A stretch of 64,000 nt of DNA from Kineococcus endophyticus (lineage in GTDB: Bacteria; Actinomycetota; Actinomycetes; Actinomycetales; Kineococcaceae). Shown here in pieces: positions 3,113 to 63,702 of this stretch. The notes below the pieces were generated by a model that was not told where the DNA came from, did not search any database, and saw only the letters and a program-made list of their open reading frames with translations. Each line of letters begins with the position of its first letter. Within the stretch, counting starts at the first letter, position 1. Position numbers and translations under genes: made by a program. The stretch spans positions 62,001 through 126,000 of the forward strand of contig NZ_JBFNQN010000009.1 in NCBI RefSeq assembly GCF_040796495.1, written 5' to 3'.

Positions 3113-3131
3113 CCTGCGTTCCGGGCGACCG

Positions 3132-4210: not shown

Positions 4211-4255
4211 TCGTTGACGCAGCCGGCTCGTCTGATGAGCCGGCTGCGTCGACGA
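4211..4255 (-). terminator. 19-bp hairpin after the M3 peptidase gene
   Basis: Arms 4211-4229 and 4237-4255 pair over 19 bases with a single G-T wobble around a 7-base loop. On the minus strand this lies 41 bases past the peptidase stop codon and before the oxidoreductase start, so it separates the two transcription units. Confidence 0.8.
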
Positions 4256-4295
4256 GCACCCCTGCGGCGCTCCGGCCGGCGGGCGCGAGAACCCC

Positions 4296-6341
4296 TCAGG
4301 CCTCCGCGAGCTGCCGCCGCCGCAGCAGCGGCTCGATGCGCGCGTCCCGGCCGCGGAACTCCCGGTAGGCGGCGAGCGGGTCCACGCTGCCCCCGCGCGA
4401 GAGCACGGTGGCGCGGAACCGGTCACCGTTCTCGCGCCGCAGGCCGCCGTTCTCGGCGAACCACTCGACGGTGTCGGCGTCGAGCACCTCGCTCCACACG
4501 TAGGAGTAGTACCCGGCCGCGTAGCCCCCGCCGAACACGTGGTGGAAGTAGGTGCTGCGGTAGCGCGGCGGGACGGCGTCGAGCGCGACCCCGGCCTCGG
4601 CCAGCGCGGCGGCCTCGAAGCGGCCGACGTCGTCGGGTTCGGCGCCGTCGAAGGCCCCGGGGGCCACCCGGTGCCAGGCCATGTCGAGCAGCGCCGCGGC
4701 GAGGTACTCCGTCGTGCCGAACCCCTGGCCGTACGCGCGGGCGGCGCGCAGGCCCTCGGCGGCGCCCTCGGGCAGCGGTTCGCCCGTGTCGACGTGCCGG
4801 GCGTAGCGGGCCAGCACCTCGGGTTCGAACCCCCAGAACTCGTTGACCTGGGAGGGGAACTCGACGAAGTCGCGCGGGACGCTCGTCCCGGAGAACCGCG
4901 GGAAGTGCACGTCGGACAGCAACCCGTGCAGCGTGTGCCCGAACTCGTGGAACAGCGTCTCGACCTCGTCGACGGTGAGCAGCGCGGGGTCGCCCGCGGC
5001 GGGCTTGGCGACGTTGAGGCAGTTCACGACGACGGGACGTTCCCCGAGCAGCCGGGACTGCTCGACGAAGGAACTCATCCACGCCCCGCCGCGCTTGGAC
5101 GGCCGGGCGTAGGGGTCGAAGAGGTAGAGCCCGAGCGGGCCCGTGGCGTCGGCGACCTCGAACGCGCGCACGTCGGCCGAGGGCACGGGGACGTCCGTGC
5201 GCTCGGTGAACGTCAGGCCGTAGAGGGCGGTGGCCGTGGCGAAGACACCGTCGACGAGGACGCGTTCGAGCTCGAACCACGGCCGCAGGGCCTCGGTGTC
5301 GACGGCGTACCGCTCCCGGCGCAGGCGTTCGGCGTAGTAGGCCCAGTCCCAGGGTTCCAGCGGTCCGTCGTGACCGTCGGCGTGCAGGAGCTCGGTGAGT
5401 TCGGCCGCTTCGGTCCGCGCGTTCGCGACGGCCGCCGGGGCCAGCCGGCGCAGCATCCCGACGGCCGCCTCCACGTCTCCGGCCGTCTCGTCCGCCACGA
5501 CCCACGAGGCGTGGTCGGCGAACCCGAGCAGCACCGCCCGCTGCGCGCGCAGCCCGGCGATGCGCAGCAGCGTGGCCCGGGTGTCGTGCGGGCCACCCCG
5601 GCCGCCACGGCGCACCGATGCCTCGTGGACGAGGCGCCGGGTCTCCCTGCGGTGCAACGACTCCAGCACGGGCTGCCCCGACGGCAGACCGAGCGGCAGG
5701 AGGTACCCGCCGCGCTCGCCGGCGGCTGCGGCGGCCCGGGCCAGTTCGGCTGCCCCCAGGCCGTCGAGCTCCGCCGCGTCCGTGACGTGGACGGCGAGGT
5801 CGTTGGTGTCGGCCAGCAGTTCGACGTCGAAGGCGGTCGTCAGGCGCGACAGCTCCTCGTTCAGCTCGCGCAGCCGGGACTGACCCGCCTCGTCCAGGAG
5901 CGCGCCGGAGCGGGCCGCGTCGCGGTGCAGGCGGTCCAGCAGCCGCCGCTGCTCCTCGCCCAACCCGGCCGGCGGGTCCTCGTGCAGGGCGCGCACGCGC
6001 TCGACGAGCCGCGGGTCGAGCCGCACGGCGTCGTGGTGGGCGGCGAGCCGGGGGCTCCACTGCGCCTGCACGGCGCGCAGGTCGTCGTCGGCGTCGGTGC
6101 CGACGAGGTTGAAGAAGACGGCCTCGGCCCGGCCGAGGAGGCGGCCGGTGGACTCCAGGGCGTCGAGGAACTCGGCGGCCGGCAGCTCACGTGCGAACAG
6201 GGCGTCGAGTTCGTCGCGGTGGGCCTGGACCCCCGCCGCGAACGCCGGGGCGAAGTGCTCCGTGCGGATCCGGTCGAAGGGCGGCACGGCGAAGGGCAGG
6301 TCGCTCGGGGCGGCGAAGGGGTTCGACTCCGGCAGGTCCAT
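4296..6341 (-). CDS. M3 family zinc metallopeptidase (Dcp/oligopeptidase type)
   Basis: A 681-residue cytosolic peptidase of the thimet oligopeptidase/dipeptidyl carboxypeptidase family, with length normal for the family. The zinc motif HEFGHTLHG is present (His465, Glu466, His469), followed by EFPSQVNEFW, and near the C-terminus FGGGYAAGYYSYVWSEVL, the substrate-binding Tyr/Gly loop typical of M3 enzymes. It would degrade short peptides. Start ATG 6341 has AGGA eight bases upstream; an in-frame GTG at 6359 is less likely. It is divergent from phoX across a 226-bp regulatory interval. Confidence 0.93.
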   Translation of the reverse strand: MDLPESNPFAAPSDLPFAVPPFDRIRTEHFAPAFAAGVQAHRDELDALFARELPAAEFLDALESTGRLLGRAEAVFFNLVGTDADDDLRAVQAQWSPRLAAHHDAVRLDPRLVERVRALHEDPPAGLGEEQRRLLDRLHRDAARSGALLDEAGQSRLRELNEELSRLTTAFDVELLADTNDLAVHVTDAAELDGLGAAELARAAAAAGERGGYLLPLGLPSGQPVLESLHRRETRRLVHEASVRRGGRGGPHDTRATLLRIAGLRAQRAVLLGFADHASWVVADETAGDVEAAVGMLRRLAPAAVANARTEAAELTELLHADGHDGPLEPWDWAYYAERLRRERYAVDTEALRPWFELERVLVDGVFATATALYGLTFTERTDVPVPSADVRAFEVADATGPLGLYLFDPYARPSKRGGAWMSSFVEQSRLLGERPVVVNCLNVAKPAAGDPALLTVDEVETLFHEFGHTLHGLLSDVHFPRFSGTSVPRDFVEFPSQVNEFWGFEPEVLARYARHVDTGEPLPEGAAEGLRAARAYGQGFGTTEYLAAALLDMAWHRVAPGAFDGAEPDDVGRFEAAALAEAGVALDAVPPRYRSTYFHHVFGGGYAAGYYSYVWSEVLDADTVEWFAENGGLRRENGDRFRATVLSRGGSVDPLAAYREFRGRDARIEPLLRRRQLAEA

Positions 6342-50543: not shown

Positions 50544-51575
50544 ATGACCCCACGTCTCCCCCGCACCACTCTCCTCCCCCTCGCGGCCGTCGTCGCGCTC
50601 GCCCTCCCCTTCACCGCGACCGTCGAGCCGGCGTCCGCTGCGTCCCGGGAAGCGGTCACGATGCCGGCCGGCGGTCCCTTCAGCGCCGGCACCGCCTGGC
50701 GGCTCGACGTCCGCGACGCCCCGGTCGCCGACCGCTCCCGCGGCATGGTCGCGAACGTCGCGCGTCAGACGGCCGAACGGTACGGCGGGGTCGCCGCCTT
50801 CAACGTCGACCAGTACACGACGAGCTTCTACACCGTCCCGGCCGGCCAGCGGCGCGTCGACGTGAAGTGGACCAACTGCCAGTCCATGTCCTTCACCCCC
50901 ACCGGCCTGCTCGGCAGCGGCGGGCAGTTCTCGGACGTCCCGGTGCCGGCGGACGCGGTCCCGGCCGCCGGGAACGACGGCCAGCTGACGGTGTACTCCC
51001 CGTCCACCGACCAGCTCTGGGAGTTCTGGCAGGCCGAGCGCGTCGGTTCCCACTGGCAGGCCTGCTGGGGCGGGCGCATCGACCACGTCTCCCGCAGTCA
51101 GGGACGCTTCTCGGGCACCTTCGGCGCCAGTGCCAGCGGCCTGGCCGTCTCGGGCGGGACCATCGGCATCGACGAGGTGCGCCGCGGGTCCATCGACCAC
51201 GCGATCGCCCTGTCGCTGCCTGAGATGGGCCGGGGCACGAGCTACCCCGCCTCGCGCGGCGACGGCTGGGTGAAGGGGGGCGACAGCATCCCCACCGGCA
51301 CGCGGCTGCGGCTGCCGGCCTCGGTCGACGTGGACGCCCTGGGCCTGCACCCGGTGGCGCGCATGGTGGCCGTGGCGGCGCAGAAGTACGGCTTCATCGT
51401 CACCGACACCGGCGGTTGCACCTCCGTCGTCGCCGAGAGCCCCGCCGCCGTGGAGGCGAAGACCGGGAAGGACCCCTGGGACCAGCTGCTCGACGGGACC
51501 CCCAACTACAGCGTCATGGCCGGGTTCCCCTGGAAGTCGTTGCAGGCGCTGCCGAAGGACTACGGCAAGCCCTGA
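50544..51575 (+). CDS. Exported protein, four-member paralogue family (copy A)
   Basis: 343 residues. A Sec signal peptide (LPLAAVVALALPFTA... then AAS) covers about the first 33 residues. The mature family domain has FSAGTAWRLDV, RYGGVAAFNVDQY, VKWTNCQS, YSPSTDQLWEFWQAE, WQACWGGRIDHVS, FGASASGLAVSGGT, RRGSIDHAIAL, TRLRLPASVDVDALGL, AAQKYGFIVTD and an end QALPKDYGKP. Three cysteines are shared with copies B and D. I do not recognise a named family or an active site. It converges on rsmI and starts the glycan-like cluster. Confidence 0.85.
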   Translation: MTPRLPRTTLLPLAAVVALALPFTATVEPASAASREAVTMPAGGPFSAGTAWRLDVRDAPVADRSRGMVANVARQTAERYGGVAAFNVDQYTTSFYTVPAGQRRVDVKWTNCQSMSFTPTGLLGSGGQFSDVPVPADAVPAAGNDGQLTVYSPSTDQLWEFWQAERVGSHWQACWGGRIDHVSRSQGRFSGTFGASASGLAVSGGTIGIDEVRRGSIDHAIALSLPEMGRGTSYPASRGDGWVKGGDSIPTGTRLRLPASVDVDALGLHPVARMVAVAAQKYGFIVTDTGGCTSVVAESPAAVEAKTGKDPWDQLLDGTPNYSVMAGFPWKSLQALPKDYGKP

Positions 51576-51584
51576 TCCGGCGGG

Positions 51585-52448
51585 TCAGCCCCTCCGACGC
51601 GCCACGACCTCGTCGTACAGCGTGCGGGAGGGGACCCCACCGCGGTCGGCCGTCACCCTGACGGCGTCCTTGAGCCGGTAGCCGGACGAGACGAGCGCGA
51701 GGACCTCCTCGACGAGTTCACCCGGCTGCCGGCTCGGAGCACCGGAGGACCCGGCGACCACCAGGCAGACCTCGCCCCGGACCTCCTCCGCGGCGGCCCA
51801 CGCGGCCAGCTCCCCCAGGGGCCCCCGCACGACCTCCTCGTACGTCTTCGTCAGCTCCCGGCAGACGGCGGCACTGCGGTCGGGCCCGAAGGCGTCCGCC
51901 ATCGCGGCGAGCGTGGTGGCCGTCCGGTGCGGGGACTCGAAGAAGACGAGCGTGCGCTCGTCGGCGGCCAGCGCCGCGAAGGTGCGGCTGCGCTCCCCCG
52001 GCTTGCGCGGCGCGAAGCCCTCGAAGGCGAAGCGGTCGCTCGGCAGCCCCGAGACCGCGAGCGCCGTCAGCACCGCCGACGGCCCGGGGACGACCGTGAC
52101 CGGGAGCTCGGCGTCCACGCACGCTCGGACGAGCCGGTAGCCGGGGTCGGAGACCGACGGCATGCCGGCGTCGGTCACCAGGGCGACGGTCGCCCCCGAG
52201 CGCACGAGGTCCACCAGCTCCGGGGTCCGCTCGACCTCGTTGTGCTCGTGGTAGCTCAGGACCTTGCCCTGCGGGGCGATCCCGAGCGTCGATGCGAGCC
52301 GGCGCAGGCGGCGGGTGTCCTCGGCCGCGACGACGTCGGCGGTGGTCAGCAGGTCCACCAGGCGCGTCGTCGCGTCGCCGGCGTTGCCGATGGGCGTCCC
52401 CGCGAGCACGAGACGACCCGGGGTCCGCTGCGCATCCACCCGCGCCAT
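51585..52448 (-). CDS. rsmI: 16S rRNA (cytidine-1402-2'-O)-methyltransferase RsmI
   Basis: A 287-residue tetrapyrrole-methylase-fold enzyme: LVLAGTPIGNAGDATTR, AAEDTRRLRRL, LSYHEHNE, LVTDAGMPSVSDPGYRLVRAC, VPGPSAVLTALAVSGLPSDRFAFEGF and FFESPHRTATTL. It 2'-O-methylates C1402 of 16S rRNA with SAM. ATG 52448 begins the family's normal N-terminus. It is a housekeeping gene flanked by the glycan-like cluster. Confidence 0.96.
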   Translation of the reverse strand: MARVDAQRTPGRLVLAGTPIGNAGDATTRLVDLLTTADVVAAEDTRRLRRLASTLGIAPQGKVLSYHEHNEVERTPELVDLVRSGATVALVTDAGMPSVSDPGYRLVRACVDAELPVTVVPGPSAVLTALAVSGLPSDRFAFEGFAPRKPGERSRTFAALAADERTLVFFESPHRTATTLAAMADAFGPDRSAAVCRELTKTYEEVVRGPLGELAAWAAAEEVRGEVCLVVAGSSGAPSRQPGELVEEVLALVSSGYRLKDAVRVTADRGGVPSRTLYDEVVARRRG

Positions 52449-52477
52449 CGTGCCGCACGGGGTCGCCCCCGCCCGCC

Positions 52478-54664
52478 TCAGGTCCGCGGCAGGTAGGGCA
52501 CGAAGGCGTCGGCGAGGCGCCGCGCCGCGGTCGCGCTGAGGTGGCTGTGGTCGCGGTAGACGAGTGTGTCCCCCAGGACGACGGGGCAGCTCCCCTCGCT
52601 GCACAGCCAGCTCGTGGAGTCGGCGTAGGCCGCCCCGAGGTCGGCTGCGGCGCGTTCCACCGCCTCCCGGCGACGCGGGTGGTTGAGCGCACGGGCCTCC
52701 TCGACGGCGCAGGCCGAGGCGTCGTCGAGGTGCCGTGCGACGCAGCGCGGCACGTCGTCACCGGGGTAGGGGGTGTCGCCCAGGACGAGGACGGCGCTGC
52801 CGCTCGAGCGCAGGTCCTCCACCGTGCTGCGGACACCGCGGTCCCAGGCCGCCACCGCCGCGTCCTCGTCGCCGGTCGCGTCCGAGGAGACGATGCCGGA
52901 CGTGACGACGAGGTCGGGACGGAGGACGCCCACCTCGGCCACGACGGCGTCCCGCCAGGCGTAGCACTCGTGGTAGTCGCGGCCGAGGCTGGACTGCACG
53001 ACGTCGAGGTCGTAGACGGGGCACCCCGACTTGGTGAAGCTCAGGACCCGGTACCCCTGCGAACGGCCGACCTCGTCGAGGGCCGGCAGCCACTGGTAGG
53101 CGTGGGAGTCGCCGACGAGGACGAGGGTGCGCGAGGCGGTGACGTCGCCGAAGGCGCAGGCCGCCCCCGGCGTCGGCCGCGGTGCGGTCTCCTCGAACCC
53201 GACGTGGCAGCTGACGCCGTCGACGGGACTGGCAGACGGCTTGTCCTCCGACGCACCGTCGAGACCGGGGGCGAGGTTGGCCGGGACGGCGCGTGCGACG
53301 AGCCCGGCGTTCAGGGTGGCGACGCTCCCGTCACCCGCCAGGACAGGGGCCGCCGCGGCCGGTCCGTCACCACGGGTGGTGGTGGACGTGGCCGAGGCCA
53401 GACCCGTGACGGCCAGCAGGAGGACCGAGGCGACGGCGGCCGCAGCCAGGGGGCGCACCCGCCCGCGCAACCGGGGGCTGCGCCGGGACGGGTCCTCCAC
53501 CAGCACGAGGGTCGCCTGCGCCAGGGCGAGCGTGGCGGCCGCGACGACCAGCCCGACGACGAGGGAGGGCTCGAGGTCCAGGACCGCGGGGACCAGCAGC
53601 AGCGCCGGCCAGTGCCAGAGGTACCAGCCGTAGGAGACCCGGCCGATGCGCTGCGCTGCAGGGCGTCCGAGGAGGTGCCGCTCGACCGGGGTGGCCCCGG
53701 GACTCCCGGCGAGGATCACCAGCGCCGTCCCGAGCACGGGCAGCAGCGCCGTGGGACCGGGGAAGCGGGTGCCGTCGTCGTAGAGGACCGCGGAGGCCAC
53801 GACGCAGGCGAGGCCGACGGCCGCGGCCCCGGAGAGGACGAGGCCCACCACCGGCAGGTCCCGGACGGCGCGGACGCGACGGACGAGCGCCGGGCCGGCG
53901 AAGGCGACGACGGCGCCCGCCCCCAGTTCCCAGGCGCGAGCGGGCAGCAGGAAGTACGCGTAGGGCTGGGCGACGTCGAGGAGCCAGGCGCTGCAGAGGA
54001 AGGAGAGCAGGCTCAGGACGCCGGTGGCGACGGCCGCCACGAGTCGGGGCCGCGCGGTCCCGCGCGCCACCGAGCGTGTCACGCGTGCCCCGAGCCACCA
54101 CACCAGCAGCAGGACCACCGGCCACAGGGCGTAGAACTGCTCCTCCACGCCGAGCGACCAGTAGTGCTGCAGCACGGACGGTTCCGCGTTGGCCTGGTAG
54201 TCCACCCCCTGGAGGGCGAGCCGGACGTTCATGGCGAAGAGGGCCGTCCACCGGGCGTCGGCGAAGGTCGCGCGCGTCTCCACGGGCGGCAGCAGCAGCC
54301 AGCTCACCACGACGGTGACCAGCAGCACGAGCAGTGAGAGCGGCAGGAGGCGCCGGACACGACGGCCGTAGAAGGCGGCCAGGGACAGCCGCCCGGTCCG
54401 TTCCAGCTCCGACACCAGGTGGGTCGTGATGAGGAAGCCCGAGATGACGAAGAAGACGTCGACGCCGACGAAACCGCCGGTCAGCCCGGGGACGCCTGCG
54501 TGGTACAAGACGACCAGGAGCACGGCGACGGCACGCAGGCCCTCGATGTCGGGCCGGAACTTCCGCCCCGCGGCGGCCTCGGGGACGCCGCCCACGGTCA
54601 CGCCCAGTCCCGACGTCGACGTCGCCTGGGCGGTCCCGCCAGGTCGGCGCACCAGGTCAGCCAC
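52478..54664 (-). CDS. Membrane O-acyltransferase with C-terminal SGNH domain (OafA/YrhL type)
   Basis: 728 residues. The acyltransferase-3 domain has about ten TM segments: RPDIEGLRAVAVLLVVLYHAG (catalytic-type His), VGVDVFFVISGFLIT, YWSLGVEEQFYALWPV and GRVSYGWYLWHWP. The extracytoplasmic SGNH hydrolase/transferase domain (about 490-728) has VLVGDSHAYQWLPAL (nucleophile Ser) and RDHSHLS (Asp-x-x-His). It O-acylates surface glycans or glycolipids. GTG 54664 is my best start; the frame is open to ATG 54700. Divergent from copy B. Confidence 0.88.
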   Translation of the reverse strand: MADLVRRPGGTAQATSTSGLGVTVGGVPEAAAGRKFRPDIEGLRAVAVLLVVLYHAGVPGLTGGFVGVDVFFVISGFLITTHLVSELERTGRLSLAAFYGRRVRRLLPLSLLVLLVTVVVSWLLLPPVETRATFADARWTALFAMNVRLALQGVDYQANAEPSVLQHYWSLGVEEQFYALWPVVLLLVWWLGARVTRSVARGTARPRLVAAVATGVLSLLSFLCSAWLLDVAQPYAYFLLPARAWELGAGAVVAFAGPALVRRVRAVRDLPVVGLVLSGAAAVGLACVVASAVLYDDGTRFPGPTALLPVLGTALVILAGSPGATPVERHLLGRPAAQRIGRVSYGWYLWHWPALLLVPAVLDLEPSLVVGLVVAAATLALAQATLVLVEDPSRRSPRLRGRVRPLAAAAVASVLLLAVTGLASATSTTTRGDGPAAAAPVLAGDGSVATLNAGLVARAVPANLAPGLDGASEDKPSASPVDGVSCHVGFEETAPRPTPGAACAFGDVTASRTLVLVGDSHAYQWLPALDEVGRSQGYRVLSFTKSGCPVYDLDVVQSSLGRDYHECYAWRDAVVAEVGVLRPDLVVTSGIVSSDATGDEDAAVAAWDRGVRSTVEDLRSSGSAVLVLGDTPYPGDDVPRCVARHLDDASACAVEEARALNHPRRREAVERAAADLGAAYADSTSWLCSEGSCPVVLGDTLVYRDHSHLSATAARRLADAFVPYLPRT

Positions 54665-54981
54665 GGGCCGGCCCCTGCTGTGCGGGCACCCGGACGCCAC
54701 TGGACGCGGGCAGCAGGCAACCCCTCAAGACCATCCGCATGGGACGCAGAGTAGCGACTTCTAGACGCCCCGTGGCGCCGTGTGAGCTACCGCACCTCCC
54801 CGGGGCCGCCGGGCGTCGCGGCGACACGGCAGGGCGCCGTCGTGTCCCGTCACCTGGCGTCACGGGGGCAGGCGCGCCTGGTGCACACGAGTGCTCTGCG
54901 CGGAGGGCGACTGAAGGTCCGGCCCGGGTGTCCCGATGGGTTCAGTGCTGCCCGAACCCTGTCGTCACTGGAGGCCTGCTC

Positions 54982-56532
54982 ATGCTCCGCCGTCTGCCCG
55001 TCGCGCTCACGCTCGCCACGTCCGCCGTCGTCGCCCTCTCCGCGAGCGCCGCCACCAGTGCCATCGCCGCCCCCGCCGCATCCGTTACAAGCACCACGGA
55101 GAGCGCGGTCCTGGCCCGCACGATGCCGGCCGGCGGGGTGTTCTCGCAGGGCACCGCGTGGCGTCTGGACGTCAGCAAGGCCCCCAAGAACGCCAACTCC
55201 GCCGCCATGGTCAAGAACGTGGCGGCGCAGACCGCGGCGCAGTACGGCGGCGTCGCGGCCTTCAACGCCTACCAGTACTCCACGAGCGTGTACACGGTCT
55301 CGTCGAGCACCCCCAAGGTGGACGTCAAGTGGAACAACTGCCAGGGCAAGTCGTGGACCCCGGCTGGACTGCTGGGTCCCGGTGGGCAGTTCACGCAGGT
55401 GCCGATCCCGGTCGACGCCGTGCCCGCCAAGGGCAGCGACAGCCAGCTGACCATCTACTCCCCCAGCACCGACCAGCTGTGGGAGTTCTGGGTGACCAAG
55501 AAGGTCGACGGTGTCTGGAGCGCCTGCTGGGGCGGGCGCATCGACGGGGTCTCCTACAGCCAGGGGTACTTCCAGGACGGATTCGGGGCCAGCGCGAGCG
55601 GGCTCGCCGTGGCGGGCGGGACCGTCGGCATCAAGGACGTGCAGTCCGGCGCGATCGACCACGCCCTCGCGCTGCACATCCCCACCCCCGGGACGTGGAA
55701 GGAGTTCAGCTACCCCGCGCAGCGCAGTGACGGCTACGACACGTCGGCGGCGCGCGTCCCGGAGGGAACGCGTCTGCGTCTCGACCCGAGCATCGACGTC
55801 GACTCCCTCGCCCTGCACCCCGTCGCGAAGATGATCGCCAAGGCGGCGCAGAAGTACGGCTTCATCGTGACCGACAAGGCCGGCTGCACCGCTGTCGTCG
55901 CCGAGAGCCCTGCCGCGGCGATCGCGGCGACCGGCGTGGACCCGTGGAAGGCCCTGCTGGGCAGCACCCCCAGCTACTCGGTGATGAAGAACTTCCCCTG
56001 GGACAAGCTCCAGGCGCTGCCGAAGGACTACGGCAAGCCGTCTGCGCCCACCGGTGCCGGTGACGGCGCCACGCCCACCCCGACGACCACCGTCGGCCCG
56101 ATCAGCAAGTACGCCTCGGACACCGCCTACCGCGTGCTGCGCAACGGGTGGGGGCCGGTCGAGAAGGACCGCAGCAACGGCGAGCAGGCCGCCGGGGACG
56201 GCAAGGCGCTGAAGGTCGGCGGGACCACCTACGCCAAGGGTTTCGGGGTCCACGCCTCCTCCGAGATCGTCGTGCCGGTCAACGGCGCCAAGACCTTCTC
56301 CTCGAAGGTCGGGCTCGACGCCGAGGTCGGGACGCGCGGCAGCGTGCAGTTCCAGGTGTGGAACGGCGGCAAGAAGCTCGCGGACAGCGGACTCGTCCGC
56401 GGCGGAGAGGCCGCTCGCACGATCGTGGCCGACGTGAGCGGGGTGTCCGAGATCCGCCTCGTGGTCACCGACGGCGGCAACGGCGTCTCGGGCGACCACG
56501 CCGACTGGGCGAACGCGGGCTTCTCGTCCTGA
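54982..56532 (+). CDS. Exported paralogue family protein with NPCBM domain (copy B)
   Basis: 516 residues. A signal peptide (1-~35) precedes the ~320-residue family domain with all signature blocks (WRLDVSKAP, QYGGVAAFNAYQY, VKWNNCQGK, STDQLWEFW, ACWGGRIDGVS, GAIDHALAL, DKAGCTAVVAESPAA, LPKDYGKP). After a Thr/Pro linker it adds a C-terminal NPCBM carbohydrate-binding domain (YRVLRNGWGPVEKDRS, YAKGFGVHASSEIVV, VGLDAEVGTRGSVQFQVW, DHADWANAGF). ATG 54982 has GGAGG eight bases away. The NPCBM fusion is the best clue that the family acts on glycans. Confidence 0.88.
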   Translation: MLRRLPVALTLATSAVVALSASAATSAIAAPAASVTSTTESAVLARTMPAGGVFSQGTAWRLDVSKAPKNANSAAMVKNVAAQTAAQYGGVAAFNAYQYSTSVYTVSSSTPKVDVKWNNCQGKSWTPAGLLGPGGQFTQVPIPVDAVPAKGSDSQLTIYSPSTDQLWEFWVTKKVDGVWSACWGGRIDGVSYSQGYFQDGFGASASGLAVAGGTVGIKDVQSGAIDHALALHIPTPGTWKEFSYPAQRSDGYDTSAARVPEGTRLRLDPSIDVDSLALHPVAKMIAKAAQKYGFIVTDKAGCTAVVAESPAAAIAATGVDPWKALLGSTPSYSVMKNFPWDKLQALPKDYGKPSAPTGAGDGATPTPTTTVGPISKYASDTAYRVLRNGWGPVEKDRSNGEQAAGDGKALKVGGTTYAKGFGVHASSEIVVPVNGAKTFSSKVGLDAEVGTRGSVQFQVWNGGKKLADSGLVRGGEAARTIVADVSGVSEIRLVVTDGGNGVSGDHADWANAGFSS

Positions 56533-56548
56533 GCTGGAGCGGGTGGGG

Positions 56549-57646
56549 TCAGGCGGGCGAGGAGGCGGTGTCCCCGTCCCCGGGTGACCGCAGCCGCGGC
56601 CAGCGCGCGCCGAGCACGAGGGCTCGCCCCCAGGCCGACCGGCGCGCGAGCAGTTCCACGAGGATCCCCACGGCGATGCCCGCGCACAGGCCGAGCAGCA
56701 CGTTCACCGTGACGCTCGTGATGCCGAGGCGCTCGAGGACCATCCGCGCGGCGGACGTCCCGAAGACGTGGCAGGTGTAGATGGAGAACGAGAACCCACC
56801 GATGACCGCGAGGGGTTTGACGGTCCGCCGCACGAGGAGCAGCGACAGGCAGGCGGTCACCCCGAGGGCGGAACTCAGGAGCGCGTGCCGTTCAGGCAGG
56901 CGGTCGACCCAGCCCTGCAGCCCGAACTGCGACCAGACGCCGAGTGCGACGGCGAGCGCGACGACACCGCCGCGCACGGGCAGCGGCGCACTGCGGAAGG
57001 AGAAACGCCGCGCCGCGACGCCGGCCAGCACGAAGGGCAGGAGGAACAGGGCGTCGCGCAGTCCGAGGAGGTTCGTCGGCGTGGGCACCACGGCATCGGC
57101 GACCACCGCCGCGACCACCGCGGCCACCATCGGCAGACGCCTGTCGAGGAGGCCGAAGCGGTCCGCGAGGCCGAGCAGGACGAAGACCCAGAAGATCGCC
57201 TCGAGGAACCAGAAGTGGGCCACGGGCAGGACGTGCCAGAGGTACCAGGGAGTTTGGCCGACGCCGTTCACCCCGCCGTCGGTCGCCTCCCCGGCCGAAC
57301 CGCGCACGAGGGCGAAGACGGTTCCGACGACCAGCATGGGCACGAGGAGACGGCGGGCCTTGCCCTGGACGAACTGCGGCCAGCCGTCCCGCAGGGGTCG
57401 CATGGCGTAGACGTAGCCCGACAGGAAGCTGAACAGGGGCATGCGCACGTACACGACCGAGTCGACCAGGTAGGACCATGGGTTGTCCGGCGGGAGGCGG
57501 AGTCCGTCCCCCGGCCCGCCACCACGGACGTGGTAGAGGACGACGAGGAGGCAGGCGAGGCCGCGCAGGGTGTCGACGGACGCGTCGCGCCCCGGCGGGA
57601 CGACGAGCAGGCGCCCGGTGGCGCGCATCTTCTCGGCAACGGTCAC
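56549..57646 (-). CDS. Acyltransferase-3 family membrane protein
   Basis: 365 residues with about ten TM segments: RDASVDTLRGLACLLVVLYHV, VRMPLFSFLSGYVYAM, HFWFLEAIFWVFVLLGL and GGFSFSIYTCHVFGTSAARMVL. No SGNH domain. The family transfers acyl groups to surface carbohydrates. GTG 57646 has GGAGG six bases upstream. Convergent with copy B and divergent from the asparagine-synthetase-like gene. Confidence 0.88.
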   Translation of the reverse strand: MTVAEKMRATGRLLVVPPGRDASVDTLRGLACLLVVLYHVRGGGPGDGLRLPPDNPWSYLVDSVVYVRMPLFSFLSGYVYAMRPLRDGWPQFVQGKARRLLVPMLVVGTVFALVRGSAGEATDGGVNGVGQTPWYLWHVLPVAHFWFLEAIFWVFVLLGLADRFGLLDRRLPMVAAVVAAVVADAVVPTPTNLLGLRDALFLLPFVLAGVAARRFSFRSAPLPVRGGVVALAVALGVWSQFGLQGWVDRLPERHALLSSALGVTACLSLLLVRRTVKPLAVIGGFSFSIYTCHVFGTSAARMVLERLGITSVTVNVLLGLCAGIAVGILVELLARRSAWGRALVLGARWPRLRSPGDGDTASSPA

Positions 57647-57796
57647 GGGGGCCTCCGGGTCGGGTCGATGTCGACGTCATTCCGGGCACCGTCGCCTCCG
57701 GGCGCGAAGCTACACCACCCTGACGGCGCACAACCAGCGCCGAGAGTGACGACGCATCACGGACCGCTTCGCCCGACACGCCGTGAAACACGCTGT

Positions 57797-57802
57797 TAAC
57801 GT
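57797..57802 (+). promoter_or_regulatory. -10 box of a leaderless promoter
   Basis: TAACGT, six bases before ATG 57809. Confidence 0.55.
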
Positions 57803-57808
57803 GCGCCC

Positions 57809-59266
57809 ATGGAGCTCAACGACCAGTTCCTCGTCTCGGCAGGTGCACGGCCGCACCCCGACGGGTGGCTGGTGGCGCAGGCCGGCCGGTGGACCCTCGC
57901 GAGCAGCCCCACCCTCCCGGTCACCCCCCTCCTCGACGAGCACGGGGCGACGGCGGGCTGGCTGCTGGGGTGGGTCGTGGCGCCGGACGGGGAGTTCCTG
58001 CACCAGCGCCCCACCCTCCCCCTGGGCGAGGTCGTGGCCCCCGACGGTGACGTCGAGGAACGTCTGTACCGCTTCGCGGGTCGCTGGGCGTGCGTGCTGC
58101 TGTCGGGCCGCCCGCGGGTCCACCTGGACCCGGCCGGGTCGCTGGCTGCGGTGTACTCCGAGCAGGAGGAAGCGGTCGCGTCCACCACGACGGTCCTCCA
58201 CCACGGCGACCGCGCACTCGGCGAGCGGTTCGGGCGTCGGACGTTGCCGCCGGGCCAGTTCTTCCCCGCCGGCCTGACCAACGAGCCCAAGGTGCACCGG
58301 GTCCTGCCGAACCACCTGCTCGACCTCGAGACCTGGCAGACGCGGCGGCACTGGCCGCCGGCCCCCGTCGAGCGGGTCGACGACCGCGACACCGAGGCGG
58401 TGGCCGACCGGCAGCGCGCCATCGCCGACGGCGTGCGGCTCACCATCGAGTCGATCGCCGCGCACCACCGCGTCCTGCTCCCGCTCACGGCCGGTCGCGA
58501 CAGCCGACTGCTCGCCGCTGCGGCTCACCGCGTGCTGGACCGGTGCACCTTCGTCGTGTTCGCCTACGACGACCAGCGCGCCTCGGACCTGGCCTTCGCG
58601 CGCGGGGCCGCGCGCAGGTTCGACCTCGACCTGCGGGTCCTGCCGCCCGAACCCGTCGACGAGCGGGCGGCGCGCACCTACCTCGACCGGGTCGGGTACG
58701 ACGCCAACGAGGGGAAGGCCGGCGACTTCATGCTCGCCGCCGGACGACTCCCCCTCGACCACGCGTGGCTGACCGGTTTCGCCGCAGAGGTGGGTCGCGG
58801 CGAGTACTGGAAGGCGAGCGACCTGCCGCGCAACCCCTCGGCGGACGAACTCGTGCAGCTGGTGCGGTTGCGCCCCGAGCCCGCGTACCGCGACGCGCTG
58901 GAGACGTGGCGAGCCGGGACCCCGCACCAGGACGTCGAGGAGCTGCTCGACCTCGCCTACCTCGAGATGCGGGTGGGGTGCTGGGCCAGCCCGCAGCTGT
59001 ACGGCGCCGCGCCCTTCACCCTGAGCACGATCCCGGTCAACCGACGGGACGTCTTCAGCGCGATGCTGCAGCTGCCGACCGCCCTGCGCGCCGCCCAGCG
59101 GACGGCGCCGGCTGCGACGGCTCTGAACTGGCCCGAGCTCGCGCGGCTGCCGTACGGCCGGGCTCCGGGCCTGCGCGGTGCGCCGGACGCCCTGGCCCGC
59201 GGAGCCCAGCGGGTGCGCGACGGGGCCGCGCTGGGCACCCGGCTGCGCAGGGCGCTGCGGCGCTGA
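57809..59266 (+). CDS. Asparagine-synthetase-like protein without glutaminase cysteine
   Basis: 485 residues. The N-terminal ~190 residues have the scaffold of a glutamine amidotransferase domain (GWLVAQAGRWTLASSP, RLYRFAGRWACVLLSGRP) but begin MELNDQ, lacking the Cys2 nucleophile. The second half is a PP-loop ATP pyrophosphatase domain: VLLPLTAGRDSRLLAAAA (variant SGGxDS), FVVFAYDDQRASDLAFARGAARRF and GFAAEVGRGEYW. It could form an amide on a glycan or peptide using ammonia or an amine. ATG 57809 follows TAACGT by six bases (leaderless). Confidence 0.8.
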   Translation: MELNDQFLVSAGARPHPDGWLVAQAGRWTLASSPTLPVTPLLDEHGATAGWLLGWVVAPDGEFLHQRPTLPLGEVVAPDGDVEERLYRFAGRWACVLLSGRPRVHLDPAGSLAAVYSEQEEAVASTTTVLHHGDRALGERFGRRTLPPGQFFPAGLTNEPKVHRVLPNHLLDLETWQTRRHWPPAPVERVDDRDTEAVADRQRAIADGVRLTIESIAAHHRVLLPLTAGRDSRLLAAAAHRVLDRCTFVVFAYDDQRASDLAFARGAARRFDLDLRVLPPEPVDERAARTYLDRVGYDANEGKAGDFMLAAGRLPLDHAWLTGFAAEVGRGEYWKASDLPRNPSADELVQLVRLRPEPAYRDALETWRAGTPHQDVEELLDLAYLEMRVGCWASPQLYGAAPFTLSTIPVNRRDVFSAMLQLPTALRAAQRTAPAATALNWPELARLPYGRAPGLRGAPDALARGAQRVRDGAALGTRLRRALRR

Positions 59267-59282
59267 CCGGTGCCCTGGGCTC

Positions 59283-60569
59283 TCAGCCGGCGGTGGCGCT
59301 GGAGCCGCTCGGCGACGGGCTCGGACGGGGTTTGCCCCAGTCCTGCGGCAGGACTTCGAGCTGGTCCCACGGGAACCCCTTGAGCACCTCGTAGGGCGGT
59401 ACCCCCCGCATGGTCCGCTGCCAGAAGTCCGGGTCGTCCGCCACGGGCTGACCGATCTGGCCGCCGACGTTCACCGCCCCGGCCTGGTCGGTGACGATGA
59501 ACCCGTACTGCTGGGCGGCGCGGGCGACCATCTCGCCCAGGGGCGTCAGGCCGAGCGAGTCGACGTCCACGTCCGCCGGCAGCCGCAGTCGGATGCCCTC
59601 CGGGAGGGCGTGCTCGGCGTCGTTGTGCCCGTCGCTGCGCTGCGCCGGCCAGCTCACGTCGTCCCACTTCGCGGGGGACACGATGGCGAGGCCGAGCGCG
59701 TGGTCGATGCGGCCGCGCCGCACGTCGTCGACCCACACCGTGCCGGCCGACATGGCCAGCCCACTGCCGCTGGCTCCGAACCCGTTGCGGAAGTAGCCCC
59801 GGCTCTTGGACACGTCGTCGATGCGTCCGCCCCAGCACGCGGCCCACCCCGTGTCGGTCTTCTTGACGCGCCACAGCTCCCACAACTGGTCGGTGCTGGG
59901 CGAGTAGATCGTGAGCTGCCCGTCGCTGCCGGGGGACGGGCGGGCGTCCGGGGGGATGGGCACGTCGGTGAACTGGCCGTCCTCGCCGAGCAGCCCGTCG
60001 GGGGTCCACGTCTTCTTCTGGCAGTTGTCCCACGTGACGTCCACCGTCGGCTGGCCGGCCGGGACGGTGTACCAGGAGGCCGTGAAGCGGTCCACGTTGA
60101 AGGCCGCCACGCCGCCCCAGTGCGCGTCGACCTGCTCGACCAGGCCCCGGACCATGGCTGCGGAGTCACGGTTGACGGGCGCGTCGGTCACCGGGGTGCG
60201 CCACACGCTGCGCGGACCGAACGGGTAGTCCGCCGCGACCTGCGGTGTCCCGGTCGGGGGCGCTCCCCCCTCGTCGCGGCTGCCGCGCTGCACCCAGGCG
60301 AGCACGGCCAGCACCAGCACCAGGGCCGCGGCGACGAGGACGAGCCATGCGCGTCGGCGTCGGTTCCACCGGGAGGCCGGACGCGGGGCGTCGGGCGCTT
60401 GGGCGTCCAGGGCGATCTCCTCGTCTCGGCGGCGGTGAGGGTCCCGGTGGCGGTCGGGCCCGCAGCGGTGGCCGGGTCCCGCCTCGGCACCGAGGGTCTC
60501 GTCGTCACGTGACGTGCCGACACTGGGCCGACCGGGCACCGGACGGACCAGCGAGCGCCAGTACACCAC
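59283..60569 (-). CDS. Membrane-anchored paralogue family protein (copy C)
   Basis: 428 residues. An Arg/Asp-rich cytosolic segment (~70 residues) and one TM helix (AWLVLVAAALVLVLAVLAWV) replace the signal peptide. The family domain follows: YPFGPRSVWRTPV, HWGGVAAFNVDRF, TWDNCQKKTWTPDG, STDQLWELW, ACWGGRIDDVS, RRGRIDHALGLAI, WPAQRSDG, AAQQYGFIVTDQAG, LPQDWGKP. Unlike A, B and D it lacks the third cysteine (QAGAVNV in place of KAGC). The Ser/Pro tail is short. GTG 60569 is the longest start; the true one is uncertain. Divergent from copy D. Confidence 0.8.
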   Translation of the reverse strand: MVYWRSLVRPVPGRPSVGTSRDDETLGAEAGPGHRCGPDRHRDPHRRRDEEIALDAQAPDAPRPASRWNRRRRAWLVLVAAALVLVLAVLAWVQRGSRDEGGAPPTGTPQVAADYPFGPRSVWRTPVTDAPVNRDSAAMVRGLVEQVDAHWGGVAAFNVDRFTASWYTVPAGQPTVDVTWDNCQKKTWTPDGLLGEDGQFTDVPIPPDARPSPGSDGQLTIYSPSTDQLWELWRVKKTDTGWAACWGGRIDDVSKSRGYFRNGFGASGSGLAMSAGTVWVDDVRRGRIDHALGLAIVSPAKWDDVSWPAQRSDGHNDAEHALPEGIRLRLPADVDVDSLGLTPLGEMVARAAQQYGFIVTDQAGAVNVGGQIGQPVADDPDFWQRTMRGVPPYEVLKGFPWDQLEVLPQDWGKPRPSPSPSGSSATAG

Positions 60570-60802
60570 GCTCGGTGAAGGTCACCCGCTGGTCGAGGTG
60601 GGTGCCCCCGTCCGCGCCGGCTGCGGGCGCTGTGTCACGCAGGGTCGCGACAGCCGGTCCAGGGCCCTTCCGACCGGGTGAAGGCGCCGCCCGATCAGGC
60701 GCCGACCTCTTGCAGGGCAGCACGGGACGACCGATGCCTGGTGTGCGGTCCAGACGAACGGGACCGCGTCCCGCAGTCCCGTCGACGCTCCGAGGAGTCC
60801 CG

Positions 60803-61903
60803 ATGACCCGCACGCCCCGCCGCCTGGCCGCGGCGATCGCCGCCACGGCCGTCCTGGCCGGAGGCGTCGTCACCGCGACGAGCGCGAGCGCCGCCGACGG
60901 CCGCGTCTCCCTCGGCCGTCGCGCGCTGTCGCCCAACGCTGCCCAGAACCTGCTCGCGGACTTCCGCGGTCCCGTGGGTACTCCGTTCGGCGCCACGAGC
61001 GCCTGGAAGCAGGACGTCACCGGCGCTCCGCTGCACCAGAACTCGGCGGCGATGGTGGCGAACGTGGCCGACCAGGCCGCGAAGTACTACGGCGGGGTCG
61101 CGGCGTTCAACGCCTACCGCTACAGCACGAGCGTCTACACGGTTCCCGCCGGAACCCCCAAGGTGGACGTCCGCTGGCACAACTGCCAGAAGAAGAACTA
61201 CACCCCTGGCGGCCTGACGGGAGCGGGCGGGCAGTTCACCCAGGTCCCCATCCCGGCGGACGCCGTGCCGGCTCCCGGCACCGACGGCGAACTGACCGTC
61301 TACTCCCCCGGGACCGACCAGCTGTGGGAGTTCTGGCAGGCGAAGAAGGTGGACGGCACCTGGCAGGCGTGCTGGGGCGGACGCATCGACAAGGTCTCCA
61401 GCGACCCGGGCTACTTCTCGGGCGGCTTCGGCGCCAGTGCCAGCGGGATGGCCATCGTCGGCGGGACCATCGGCATCAAGGAGGCGCAGGCCGGCAGCAT
61501 CGAGCACGCCCTCGCCCTGGCGATCCCCGCACCGGGCAACTGGAACGAGACCAGCTGGCCCGCTCAGCGCAGCGACGGGTACGACAAGTCCGCCGGACGC
61601 GTCCCCGAGGGCACGCGCCTGCGGTTGGACCCCAGCATCGACGTCGACAAGCTCAAGCTGACGCCGATCGCGAAGATGGTCGCCAAGGCCGCCCAGAAGT
61701 ACGGGTTCATCGTCACCGACAAGGCCGGCTGCGTCGCCGTCACCGCCGAGAGCCCCGCCGCCACCATCGCCGCCACGGGGGTCGACCCGTGGAAGGCCCT
61801 GATGCAGGGGAAGCCGGACTACCTGATCATGAAGGACTTCCCCTGGGACAAGTTGCAGGCCCTGCCCAAGGACTACGGCAAGCCCGCCAACCCCAAGCGG
61901 TGA
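60803..61903 (+). CDS. Exported paralogue family protein (copy D)
   Basis: 366 residues. Signal peptide (LAAAIAATAVLAGGVVTATSASAA), then a ~30-residue spacer and the family domain: SAWKQDVTGAPLHQNSAAM, YYGGVAAFNAYRY, RWHNCQKKNYTPGG, LWEFWQAKKVDG, ACWGGRIDKVS, SIEHALALAIP (Glu-His in place of Asp-His), TRLRLDPSIDVDKLKL, DKAGCVAV and LPKDYGKP. It is closest to copy B by eye. ATG 60803 has GAGGAG six bases upstream. The 233-bp divergent gap to copy C holds no gene and probably both promoters. Confidence 0.87.
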   Translation: MTRTPRRLAAAIAATAVLAGGVVTATSASAADGRVSLGRRALSPNAAQNLLADFRGPVGTPFGATSAWKQDVTGAPLHQNSAAMVANVADQAAKYYGGVAAFNAYRYSTSVYTVPAGTPKVDVRWHNCQKKNYTPGGLTGAGGQFTQVPIPADAVPAPGTDGELTVYSPGTDQLWEFWQAKKVDGTWQACWGGRIDKVSSDPGYFSGGFGASASGMAIVGGTIGIKEAQAGSIEHALALAIPAPGNWNETSWPAQRSDGYDKSAGRVPEGTRLRLDPSIDVDKLKLTPIAKMVAKAAQKYGFIVTDKAGCVAVTAESPAATIAATGVDPWKALMQGKPDYLIMKDFPWDKLQALPKDYGKPANPKR

Positions 61904-61951
61904 CCGCGCCGGTCACCGACGATCTGTGACCCTCTGACGTACTCGCGGTAG

Positions 61952-61989
61952 CCTCCCGCTCGGAACGAAGCACGACCCCGAGCGGGAGG
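61952..61989 (+). promoter_or_regulatory. 12-bp inverted repeat covering the ribosome site of the next gene
   Basis: CCTCCCGCTCGG (61952-61963) pairs perfectly with CCGAGCGGGAGG (61978-61989). The right arm contains most of the Shine-Dalgarno GGGAGGA that serves GTG 61997. A -10-like TAGCCT (61949-61954) overlaps the left arm, so the repeat could be an operator, or an mRNA hairpin if transcription starts further upstream, or a terminator for copy D. Confidence 0.45.
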
Positions 61990-61996
61990 ACCCCCG

Positions 61997-62536
61997 GTGA
62001 GCAGATCGTGGTGGCGCGAGTGGCTCGACCTGACCCGCAGCGACCTGCCCCTGAACCGGCCCTCCCGTGAGTCGATCGCCACGATGGCCATCTGGCGCTT
62101 CGGGCAGGTCCTGCACGACCGCCCCGGCGCGGCCGCCTTCGCCCTGCGCCGCGTGCACGGCGTGGTCGACCAGCTGTGGACGCGGAACACCATCGGGGCC
62201 GAACTGCCGCGCAGCGTCGTCGTCGGTCCCGGGATGAAGCTCCCCCACGCGGGACGGGGCGTCATCGTGCACCCCGACGCCCGCATCGGCGCGAACGTCA
62301 CGCTCCACCACCGCGTGACGATCGGCGTGCGGAACAACGCGCGACCGCCCCACATCGGAGACGGCGTCTACCTCGGTGCCGGCGCTGCGGTCCTCGGCCC
62401 CGTCGACCTCGGGCCCGGCTGCAAGGTGGGGGCCAACGCGGTCGTCGTCAAGGACGTCGAGGCCGGGGCGACGGTCGTCGCCCCTCCGGTGCGGGTCCTG
62501 TCCGGGGCGCAGAGCACCCCCTCCCGACCCGCCTGA
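61997..62536 (+). CDS. Serine-acetyltransferase-like hexapeptide acyltransferase
   Basis: 179 residues. A short N-terminal helical region (WWREWLDLTRSDLPLN, IATMAIWRFGQVLH) is followed by a left-handed beta-helix: GPGMKLPHAGRGVIVHPDARIGANVTLHHRVTIGV (with the active-site HH), then PHIGDGVYLGAGAAVLGPV and GCKVGANAVVVKDV. The form is that of the CysE/WcaB-type acetyltransferases found in exopolysaccharide clusters, so glycan acetylation is more likely than cysteine synthesis here. GTG 61997 has GGAGGA with six-base spacing. Confidence 0.88.
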   Translation: MSRSWWREWLDLTRSDLPLNRPSRESIATMAIWRFGQVLHDRPGAAAFALRRVHGVVDQLWTRNTIGAELPRSVVVGPGMKLPHAGRGVIVHPDARIGANVTLHHRVTIGVRNNARPPHIGDGVYLGAGAAVLGPVDLGPGCKVGANAVVVKDVEAGATVVAPPVRVLSGAQSTPSRPA

Positions 62537-62634
62537 CGACGCGCGCCCGGTCGGGCGTGACGACAGTCACTCGTTGTTGTTCACCCGTGAGCCGACTGTG
62601 TACCTTCTCAGCAGCCTCACGACAAGGAGAACCG

Positions 62635-63702
62635 GTGACCCGTCACGCCCAGCAGGTTAGGTACGACTGGGTCGACACCGCCCGCGGAGCGAGCATCCTG
62701 CTCGTCATCACCTACCACGCGGCACTCTTCGCCGCCTCGGTCGGCTTGGAGTCGAACGCCTGGAACGTCGTCAACGGCGCTACGCGGGTGATCCGGATGC
62801 CGCTCTTCTTCTTCATCAGCGGCCTCCTCGCGAGCAGCGCACTGGCCCGCCCCTGGATGCCGACCCTTCGGCGCAGGGTGGCAGGCAACCTGTACCTGTA
62901 CGTCCTGTGGGCCACACTGGCGTTCGTCCTCTTCAGCCTCGTGCCCTACGAACGGCAGGGCGCCCCGCGGGGGGCCTGGCACTGGGTGGAGTCCACCTTC
63001 ACCCAGCCGCAAAACGGCCTGTGGTACCTCCTGGCCCTGGCTCTCTTCACCCTGGCGGCAAAGGCGCTCAATCGGTTCTCGACCTTGGCGGTGCTCGTGC
63101 CGGCCGCGCTGTTGTCCGCGGTGGCCGGGACCGACCTGGTCCCCAGCAGCTTCGTGTGGAACAACTGCCTCGTCCTCTTCGTGTTCTTCCTGGCGGGCAG
63201 CAGGCTCAGGTCCCAGACGCTGGGCCGGATTCCCCGCCTTGGGCGACTCTCGATCGCCCTCCCCCTCGCTTCGGTGGTGGGTGTCGTCGCACTCGTCGCG
63301 GCAAAGCTCGACGTTCTGGACGTGGCCGGGGTTCGGTTCGCCCTGGGCGCAGCGGCAGTTCTTGCGGGACTGAGTTTCTCAGCGTCGATCGCTTCGAGCC
63401 GCTTCGGCCGGTTCCTCGCGACGGTGGGCCGCGACACGCTCGGTGTCTACGTAACCCACGAGATGTTGCTCGCGTTGTTGGTGCTCCCCATGGCGGGCCT
63501 CGCCAGCAGCCCTTGGGTCGACGCGGCTCGATGGTTCGCTCCTCCCGTCCTCGTGGTGGTGGGAACTGCCGCCGCCCTGGCCCTGCGCAAGCCGTTGTCC
63601 AAGGTGCCAGGTCTTCTGGCCGCGCCGACCTTCCTGACGGGACCTCAGCGTCCCGGCGGAGAGACGGTGGGACGGAAGACGGACCTGCAGCCGGTGCGTT
63701 GA
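62635..63702 (+). CDS. Acyltransferase-3 family membrane protein
   Basis: 355 residues with about ten TM segments: RYDWVDTARGASILLVITYHAALFA, VIRMPLFFFISGLLASSALARPW, QNGLWYLLALALF, LVLFVFFLAGSRLRS and GRDTLGVYVTHEMLLALLVLP. Third acyltransferase of the cluster. GTG 62635 has AAGGAGA five bases upstream, and TACCTT (62602-62607) is a candidate -10. By eye the codon use is somewhat less GC-extreme than its neighbours, hinting at later acquisition. Confidence 0.87.
   Translation: MTRHAQQVRYDWVDTARGASILLVITYHAALFAASVGLESNAWNVVNGATRVIRMPLFFFISGLLASSALARPWMPTLRRRVAGNLYLYVLWATLAFVLFSLVPYERQGAPRGAWHWVESTFTQPQNGLWYLLALALFTLAAKALNRFSTLAVLVPAALLSAVAGTDLVPSSFVWNNCLVLFVFFLAGSRLRSQTLGRIPRLGRLSIALPLASVVGVVALVAAKLDVLDVAGVRFALGAAAVLAGLSFSASIASSRFGRFLATVGRDTLGVYVTHEMLLALLVLPMAGLASSPWVDAARWFAPPVLVVVGTAAALALRKPLSKVPGLLAAPTFLTGPQRPGGETVGRKTDLQPVR

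Follow-up and report, generated by a model that had tools for sequence, protein, structure and literature searches.

The window analysed here is a stretch of 64,000 nucleotides from the genome of Kineococcus endophyticus (contig NZ_JBFNQN010000009.1, positions 62,001 to 126,000 of the forward strand; all coordinates below are those of the window). Towards its end, between positions 50544 and 63702, lie four genes for exported proteins that share a core domain of about 300 residues, interspersed with acyltransferase genes. We call them copies A to D. A fifth, copy E, follows about 5 kb beyond the window end, and together the five genes are spread over about 21 kb of what, judged by its gene content, is a Wzx/Wzy-type exopolysaccharide (EPS) locus. 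The same domain recurs at EPS loci of other bacteria and in Gordonia phage proteins, most of them annotated as tail proteins. We describe this family and develop the reading that its members may be EPS-processing enzymes.

Five copies of one exported domain

Copies A to D are 50–73% identical to each other (BLASTP, every pair at E ≤ 1.5e-110) and differ in how they are displayed. Copy A (50544..51575, + strand) consists of a signal-peptide-like N-terminus and the core domain at residues 44–343. Copy B (54982..56532, +) begins in the same way, carries the core domain at residues 52–353 and continues through a linker into a C-terminal NPCBM/NEW2 module (residues 376–514, 56107..56523, +; PF08305, E 8.5e-44). 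In copy C (59283..60569, −) an N-terminal transmembrane anchor precedes the core domain at residues 115–414, while copy D (60803..61903, +), the copy used for structure modelling, again joins a signal-peptide-like N-terminus to the core domain. Copy E (window-equivalent 68905–71628) adds three NPCBM modules to the core domain. The export signals, namely signal-peptide-like segments in A, B, D and E and a strong transmembrane segment preceded by a charged tail in C, were read from the sequence by inspection. The NPCBM modules were assigned with Pfam PF08305, for which copies B and E score 149.3 and 424.3 bits against a curated cut-off of 23.9; the same scan found none in copies A, C and D. As annotated from its GTG start, copy C has about 70 residues ahead of the transmembrane segment. 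Its K. vitellinus orthologue, as called by a script, has about 14, and the true start of copy C may therefore lie downstream.

Much of this had been recognised in a first-pass annotation of the window, which described four exported paralogues with one common domain, displayed by a signal peptide, by a signal peptide plus NPCBM, or by a transmembrane anchor. The alignments and the Pfam scan bear out this description. The proposed number of four holds for the window, and a search of the source genome at E ≤ 1 raises it to five by adding copy E. The sequence blocks that had been called invariant do not hold in the same way, as several vary among copies A, C and D: copy C reads WGGVAAFN, QQYGFIVTD and LPQDWGKP, copy A IDHAI, and copy D GTDQLWEFW and IEHAL.

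The closest relative of copy D is found in K. vitellinus (86% identity). In a tree of 33 domains, from which one of the four copies of genome G006 was left out, copy C and its orthologues from three other Kineococcus species form a single clade with a support of 1.0. Copies A, B, D and E stand apart from this clade and group solely with Kineococcus sequences (support 0.97).

An exopolysaccharide locus cut by the window

The locus runs on for about 20 kb past the window (window-equivalent 64294–84765). In downstream order it holds a Wzx flippase, a PMT-type mannosyltransferase, a core-2-branching-type gene, copy E, a Wzz-like gene and Wzy, followed by a second hexapeptide transferase and more genes, among them those for glycosyltransferases, for WecG/TagA and for a priming sugar transferase. 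These assignments come from Pfam (Polysacc_synt_3, E 2e-81; Wzy_C, E 3.6e-17; Bac_transf, E 2.1e-26; WecG, E 2.4e-59), with the Wzz-like gene, at E 6.5e-5, slightly below the curated cut-off. Such a set of predicted genes identifies the locus that holds copies A to E as one of the Wzx/Wzy type. Pfam found no phage structural gene among the 14 neighbours scanned, five in the window and nine downstream; PHROGs was not run on them.

Recurrence at exopolysaccharide loci of other genomes

Is this association peculiar to K. endophyticus? Within the genus the EPS-associated system is accessory: besides the source, 5 of 10 Kineococcus genomes gave a match, one of them with fragments at contig ends only. 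Counting the source genome in both cases, a protein query placed the family in 13 of 59 genomes, and a profile query placed it, or a more distant relative, in 71 of 394 genomes of the class. A contig scan with copy D as the lone query gave no relative, and relatives were recovered once an alignment was used. A pattern scan of public genomes yielded 42 loci in 34 genomes, the latter number resting on organism labels assigned by hand. These loci include Pseudokineococcus, Nocardioides, Mobilicoccus, Austwickia, Arsenicicoccus, Agilicoccus, Propionibacteriaceae, Solirubrobacterales and two Massilia.

Up to six copies occur per genome. In 31 family-bearing genomes the copies fall into 56 clusters and, among the matches listed, 59 of the 94 counted copies sit in multi-copy clusters. 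Contig breaks inflate the number of clusters, and the count leaves out the split-match row G460:C110:5307, acyltransferase-3 rows below the cut-off, the weakest listed rows, fragmentary or weak rows of the priming transferase family PF02397, and genome G319 (same matches as G451).

Glycan genes recur beside the family. A Wzy homologue is present at 24 of the 42 loci and in 23 of the 34 genomes; among these 24 loci a family gene adjoins it directly in 9 and lies at most three genes away in 20. For comparison we used 20 control stretches of 20 kb from the same set of genomes, picked by hand with round numbers as coordinates. Wzy was found at 20 of 28 long family loci and in none of the controls (Fisher 1.9e-7, uncorrected for relatedness and multiple genes), Wzz at 18, and WecG and each of two hexapeptide transferases at 17, again with no control stretch matched; some glycosyltransferase queries match 1–2 of the 20 controls. 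The family loci, being from related species, are not independent of each other. Across all 42 loci Wzz is found at 20 (19 in a second run, for which the search set differed), WecG at 20 and the hexapeptide transferases at 18 and 20. A PF02397 priming transferase lies within 15 kb of 15 of the 56 clusters among the matches listed, where gene numbers and genome sizes would lead one to expect 1.7.

The same picture emerges from two Pfam scans of neighbouring proteins, which covered 103 of 111 and 114 of 122 neighbours drawn from 23 of the 42 loci. Both are headed by glycosyltransferase families 2 and 4 and by hexapeptide transferases, and contain Wzy_C in 8 and 9 proteins and WecG in 5 and 6, respectively. 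ATP synthase genes, an ordinary chromosomal neighbour, are also frequent in the set of 103. Genes outside named records were called by a simple script, and their starts may be misplaced. We regard it as very likely that the family is part of an EPS system.

Three outlying groups of matches deserve a description of their own. One of the two Massilia copies (L066, L075), that of CF038, is intact and lies near Wzx-, glycosyltransferase- and hexapeptide-type genes, while the matched stretch of H-1 has stops. Because two Massilia carry the family, transfer between phyla is suggested. Contigs L040 and L052, filed as Candidatus Melainabacteria (isolate BOG_genome_mining.24), encode members that share 57% and 55% identity with copy D; they are possibly actinobacterial contigs in a mixed bin. 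Finally, a distant family domain at G043:C1:2310114-2310941 lies inside an open frame of 1132 residues and represents a different architecture; the closest PF02397 gene is about 118 kb away.

A domain outside the model collections and its partners

The core domain falls outside all Pfam and NCBIfam models, and searches of PDB sequences gave no significant match for it. Among the Pfam, NCBIfam, PHROGs and PDB sequence searches the sole convincing hit is phrog_17388, annotated as 'minor tail protein' (E 6.6e-16 for copy D and 4.7e-13 for copy A). A non-exhaustive search of the open-access literature found no description of the family, of an MltA-like fold in an EPS role or of its sharing with phage tails; the available part of one paper (PMC12419801) concerns another superfamily.

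More can be said about what the domain is fused to. We scanned 75 members, comprising 66 of the 69 family genes at the 42 loci (L035–L076), the five source-locus copies, two phage proteins and two viral-contig proteins. Carbohydrate-binding modules were found in up to 22 of them, in the form of malectin (16 members), NPCBM (5) and F5/8 type C (1). The NCBIfam model GlucurArabfur also matches 14 of the 75; it is suspected to detect the malectin part (14 versus 16), which was left unchecked, and the match was not used.

Relatives in phage tails

By tblastn the domain occurs in 69 Gordonia phage records. Among the 40 listed, 31 are annotated as minor tail protein and 9 as hypothetical. In phage Posh the family gene stands one gene after another minor tail gene, and in phage Trax it comes after the major tail protein gene. 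Predicted viral structures agree with the model of copy D: two reach a TMq of 0.69–0.70, among them A0A411B1R7 of Gordonia phage Guillaume (0.70), and three 0.54–0.61. The minor tail proteins of phrog_17388 and the Gordonia phages thus resemble the family in domain sequence and in model. They differ in their place among phage structural genes and in their N- and C-terminal parts, and their function is unassigned there too.

A more distant family domain was seen on the viral contig L123, near the C-terminus of an open frame of about 1490 residues (1455–5936) and behind a large unassigned region. By eye this region suggested a fusion with a polysaccharide lyase, an idea that we dropped because neither Pfam nor PDB sequence searches supported it.

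A conserved set of acidic residues and histidine

Which residues have been kept across this diversity? We aligned 72 superfamily sequences from actinobacteria, Massilia, viral contigs and phages: 39 core sequences, 29 distant actinobacterial ones, two from phages and two from viral contigs. The core set holds the four window copies and 35 of the 42 loci; L035 was left out as near-identical, L045, L047, L065, L075 and L076 for their stops, and L059 with no reason stated. The distant set draws on 34 stretches, of which L078, L079, L080 and L082 (core family or repeats) and a fragment of L027 were omitted.

Four positions stand out, numbered here as in copy D with the model numbering in brackets. 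Asp161 (117; codon 61283..61285, +) is Asp in all 72 sequences, and His235 (191; codon 61505..61507, +) is likewise His in 72 of 72. At Glu176 (132; codon 61328..61330, +) 64 sequences have Glu and the other 8 Asp, and Asp306 (262; codon 61718..61720, +) is Asp in 71 and Glu in one. The two aligned phage proteins retain Asp, Asp in place of Glu, His and the second Asp. Pro209, Ala210, Gly226 and Gly257 (model positions) are invariant as well. A further alignment of 24 sequences, which brings in seven additional viral-contig relatives, has both Asp in every sequence and retains the Glu/Asp position.

Predicted fold and comparison with MltA

An AlphaFold2 model of copy D (pLDDT 93.6, pTM 0.91) was complemented by one of a compact viral-contig relative that is 22% identical to it (pLDDT 92.3, pTM 0.90). 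The two models are not fully independent, since the underlying alignments share some sequences. Neither Foldseek nor VIA gave a clear match to a known structure, and no unrelated known enzyme emerged as the equal of this fold.

MltA is lytic transglycosylase family 2, GH102 in CAZy. In the VIA comparison, which aligned 565 and 470 chains out of 350,542, the five best matches of the D model include MltA of Acinetobacter baumannii (7esj, Z 3.5, 173 residues) and of Escherichia coli (2pi8, Z 3.0, 173 residues), next to a diffocin baseplate (Z 3.6), a cyanophage baseplate (Z 3.1) and cerato-platanin 3sul (Z 2.8, 92 residues). For the relative's model they are 3czb, titled putative transglycosylase, from Caulobacter (Z 3.8, 178 residues), 2pnw, titled membrane-bound lytic murein transglycosylase, from Agrobacterium (Z 3.5, 170 residues), MltA 2pic of E. 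coli (Z 2.6, 147 residues), the barwin-like 4jp6 (Z 3.3, 90 residues) and the same diffocin chain (Z 3.6). We presume 3czb and 2pnw to be of the MltA type. Five transglycosylase entries from four species in two lists of five would be more than chance, by our own estimate and not by computation. Their alignments span nearly the whole model, with 147–178 residues at a root-mean-square deviation of 5.8–6.6 Å.

MltA has been described (PMC8562663) as a double-psi barrel to which both the N- and the C-terminal segment contribute, a second domain lying between these segments. The segment pattern suggested by the weak matches, with barrel pieces at both ends and a separate middle domain, would correspond to this. 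NTF2-like chains align with residues 58–143 only, in mid-chain of the relative's model, as might be expected of an inserted domain. Barwin and cerato-platanin are small double-psi barrel proteins, and 4jp6 and 3sul align over long ranges for few residues, which suggests pieces from both ends of the models. At about 120 residues they differ in having no space for an inserted domain, and they are absent from PDB sequence searches of the family up to E 10.

At the sequence level Pfam gave no match to MltA or 3D up to E 10 in nine proteins (its filters drop most matches above 0.1). In all 60 genomes of the class that were scanned, PF06725 (3D) remained without a match, hence there were no local 3D proteins for comparison. 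An MltA-like architecture of the core domain is thus a suggestion of the models and unproven. The family differs from MltA in its EPS-locus setting and in the lack of a detected sequence relation. The diffocin baseplate domain (8v3w chain H 332–462), with Z 3.6 against both models level with the transglycosylases, may be distantly related to the family when considered together with the phage tail homologues.

A proposed role in cleaving exopolysaccharide

The family combines the EPS setting, export, binding modules, the conserved acidic/His set and carriage by phages, and its simplest reading is an EPS-cleaving enzyme. More fully, the proteins would be exported EPS-processing enzymes of Wzx/Wzy-dependent loci, with a core domain of MltA-like architecture that most likely cleaves a glycan chain; we give this proposal about even chances. 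The domain would act as a hydrolase, lyase or lytic transglycosylase, with the chain held in a groove between a sequence-split double-psi beta-barrel and a beta-domain inserted into the barrel, where the conserved Asp, Glu/Asp, His and Asp would be the site residues. A membrane-anchored copy, C in the source locus, would work on chains that are emerging or bound to the cell, and the secreted ones, A, B, D and E, some of them equipped with NPCBM, on released matrix. Trimming, the setting of chain length or cell release are possible outcomes. Phages, which usually carry depolymerases in such a tail position, would reuse the domain in their tail proteins, presumably for passage through such glycans.

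Depolymerases encoded in EPS loci are of an already known kind. PelA, PgaB, AlgL and BcsZ belong to other families and to Gram-negative systems, among which are those for alginate, Pel, poly-N-acetylglucosamine, cellulose and Psl. As far as the available parts of the sources go, they resemble our family in being exported, in their presumed glycan cleavage and in having their gene inside the EPS locus (PMC9894940, PMC8829089, PMC5933820, PMC9075953); hydrolase or lyase genes are described there as common in EPS gene clusters (PMC9075953), and secreted low-molecular-weight Pel as generated by PelA (PMC9894940). The family differs from these enzymes in its Wzx/Wzy-type locus, its mostly actinobacterial distribution and its up to six copies per genome. 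A bolder formulation is that we are looking at a superfamily outside Pfam and NCBIfam, with an MltA-like split barrel and an Asp/Glu/His/Asp site, that serves as a standard depolymerase of Wzx/Wzy EPS loci in actinobacteria and some Massilia, and also as the tail depolymerase of phages infecting the same host group. One catalytic module would then be used by both parties in the conflict between phage and host. We offer this tentatively, as plausible and somewhat short of even.

If true, actinobacterial Wzx/Wzy EPS loci would have a dedicated processing enzyme, of which our non-exhaustive search of the open-access literature found none. The family, which in 23 of 34 genomes has a polymerase homologue no more than about 10 kb away, is a candidate for setting chain length, release and matrix turnover, and its presence in 69 phage records makes it a candidate for the passage of Gordonia phages through the host coat. 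Activity would further mean a new class of EPS-degrading enzymes and a function for phage tail proteins that have been labelled by position alone.

Several observations weigh against a cleaving enzyme of this build. In Foldseek neither model has a significant counterpart in PDB (best E 1.1). The VIA scores of Z 2.6–3.8 are low, the aligner itself noting that values under 8 may reflect a common arrangement alone, and the two baseplate chains, diffocin at 3.6 and cyanophage at 3.1, score like the transglycosylases. With hhalign, the scores of the family profile against E. coli MltA, its 3D region and RlpA-type barrels did not exceed those for seven unrelated E. coli proteins; against the single sequence of E. 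coli MltA the probability was 0.1, at the level of the controls in what is a weak test. We do not claim common descent with MltA, because hhalign gave no signal above controls, and we do not file the family under MltA, because each Z is low and comparing profiles revealed no relation to either MltA or RlpA. Compared by eye, the near-invariant Asp fits the motif of the MltA substrate-binding Asp317 and not that of the catalytic Asp328 (E. coli precursor). The His is absent from the viral-contig relative L125, one of the 24 aligned, and the conserved residues could instead bind a metal or a ligand. No Wzy homologue is seen at 18 of the 42 loci, many of which lie on short contigs. As to the division of labour, copy C lies about 12 kb from Wzy in the source locus, where the closest copy is the secreted E, and elsewhere the copy nearest Wzy is signal-peptide-like in at least 4 of 24 loci (L037, L039, L063, L070; judged by eye).

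By the same inspection, the copy nearest Wzy has either a lipobox or a transmembrane segment at no fewer than 8 of the 24 (L036, L047, L050, L053, L054, L056, L057, L061), and many other copies have long N-terminal extensions. We gave up the notion that the copy at the polymerase is always an anchored one: it fits at least those 8 of 24 and not the source locus.

What else could such a domain do? It might be a non-catalytic, lectin-like matrix or anchoring protein, with C holding EPS on the cell, A, B, D and E cross-linking the matrix, and phages binding the coat. The EPS-locus setting, the variety of display, the expansion of copies, the lectin-type partner modules and the phage tail homologues would all suit such a role, as would the lack of a clear enzyme fold match. 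However, some members already possess separate binding modules, which is the usual arrangement for a catalytic domain. Moreover, the acidic residues are retained in all sequences, and the His in all but one, down to about 20–25% identity, a degree of conservation that one would not usually expect of a pure binding domain. We consider a purely binding function unlikely, if still worth taking seriously.

The weak likeness to lytic transglycosylase structures, and the presence of the domain in tails of phages that infect a walled host, could also be explained by a lytic transglycosylase-like enzyme that acts on peptidoglycan. It would make space for the EPS machine or provide anchoring sites, and in phage tails it would serve wall penetration. 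No sequence relation to MltA or RlpA was detected, though, and the up to six copies per genome, the EPS neighbours and the secreted forms with carbohydrate-binding modules favour a substrate in the matrix; a wall substrate is in our view rather improbable. Still less probable is a transferase or ligase that works at the polymer end and attaches finished EPS to the cell wall or to a surface protein. Family genes near Wzy and Wzz, one membrane-anchored lineage and the PMT-type transferase gene in the locus would be in keeping with it. Yet secreted copies with linkers and carbohydrate-binding modules could hardly use a membrane donor, and use in phage tails would not fit a ligase.

The acyltransferase genes between the copies

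Rather than an EPS-cleaving enzyme, the first-pass annotation had envisaged a surface-glycan machine in which the family, as the unassigned key player, works with the acyltransferases and an asparagine-synthetase-like enzyme encoded between the copies. What stands of this is the unassigned exported family in an EPS setting, with Wzx, Wzz, Wzy, WecG and a priming transferase in the source locus and Wzy and Wzz elsewhere; the proposed partners do not. Pfam does confirm the three acyltransferase-3 genes, one of them fused to an SGNH domain (52478..54601, −) and the others at 56549..57646 (−) and 62635..63702 (+), together with one hexapeptide-repeat transferase (61997..62536, +). The asparagine-synthetase-like label of the gene at 57809..59266 (+) is unsupported: the best match of its product is QueC at E 0.25 in Pfam and a designed protein at E 0.006 in PDB, and a homologue occurs at 1 of the 42 family loci.

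An acylation machine with the family as its key player is suggested by the three acyltransferase-3 genes between its copies and by the enrichment of such genes within 15 kb of 8 of the 56 clusters against 1.9 expected (among the matches listed), but it is highly improbable: the clusters are few, the window's three genes have homologues at 0, 2 and 2 of the 42 family loci in the order given above, and in the Pfam sets of neighbours acyltransferase-3 accounts for 4 of 114 and at most 1 of 103 proteins (outside the 25 families listed), compared with 9 and 8 for Wzy. The query for the SGNH fusion also matches 1 of the 20 control stretches. The transferase that does recur is of the hexapeptide type. 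The window's own gene for it has homologues at 18 of the 42 family loci, and its closest NCBIfam models are EpsC and CysE (serine O-acetyltransferase), both below cut-off.

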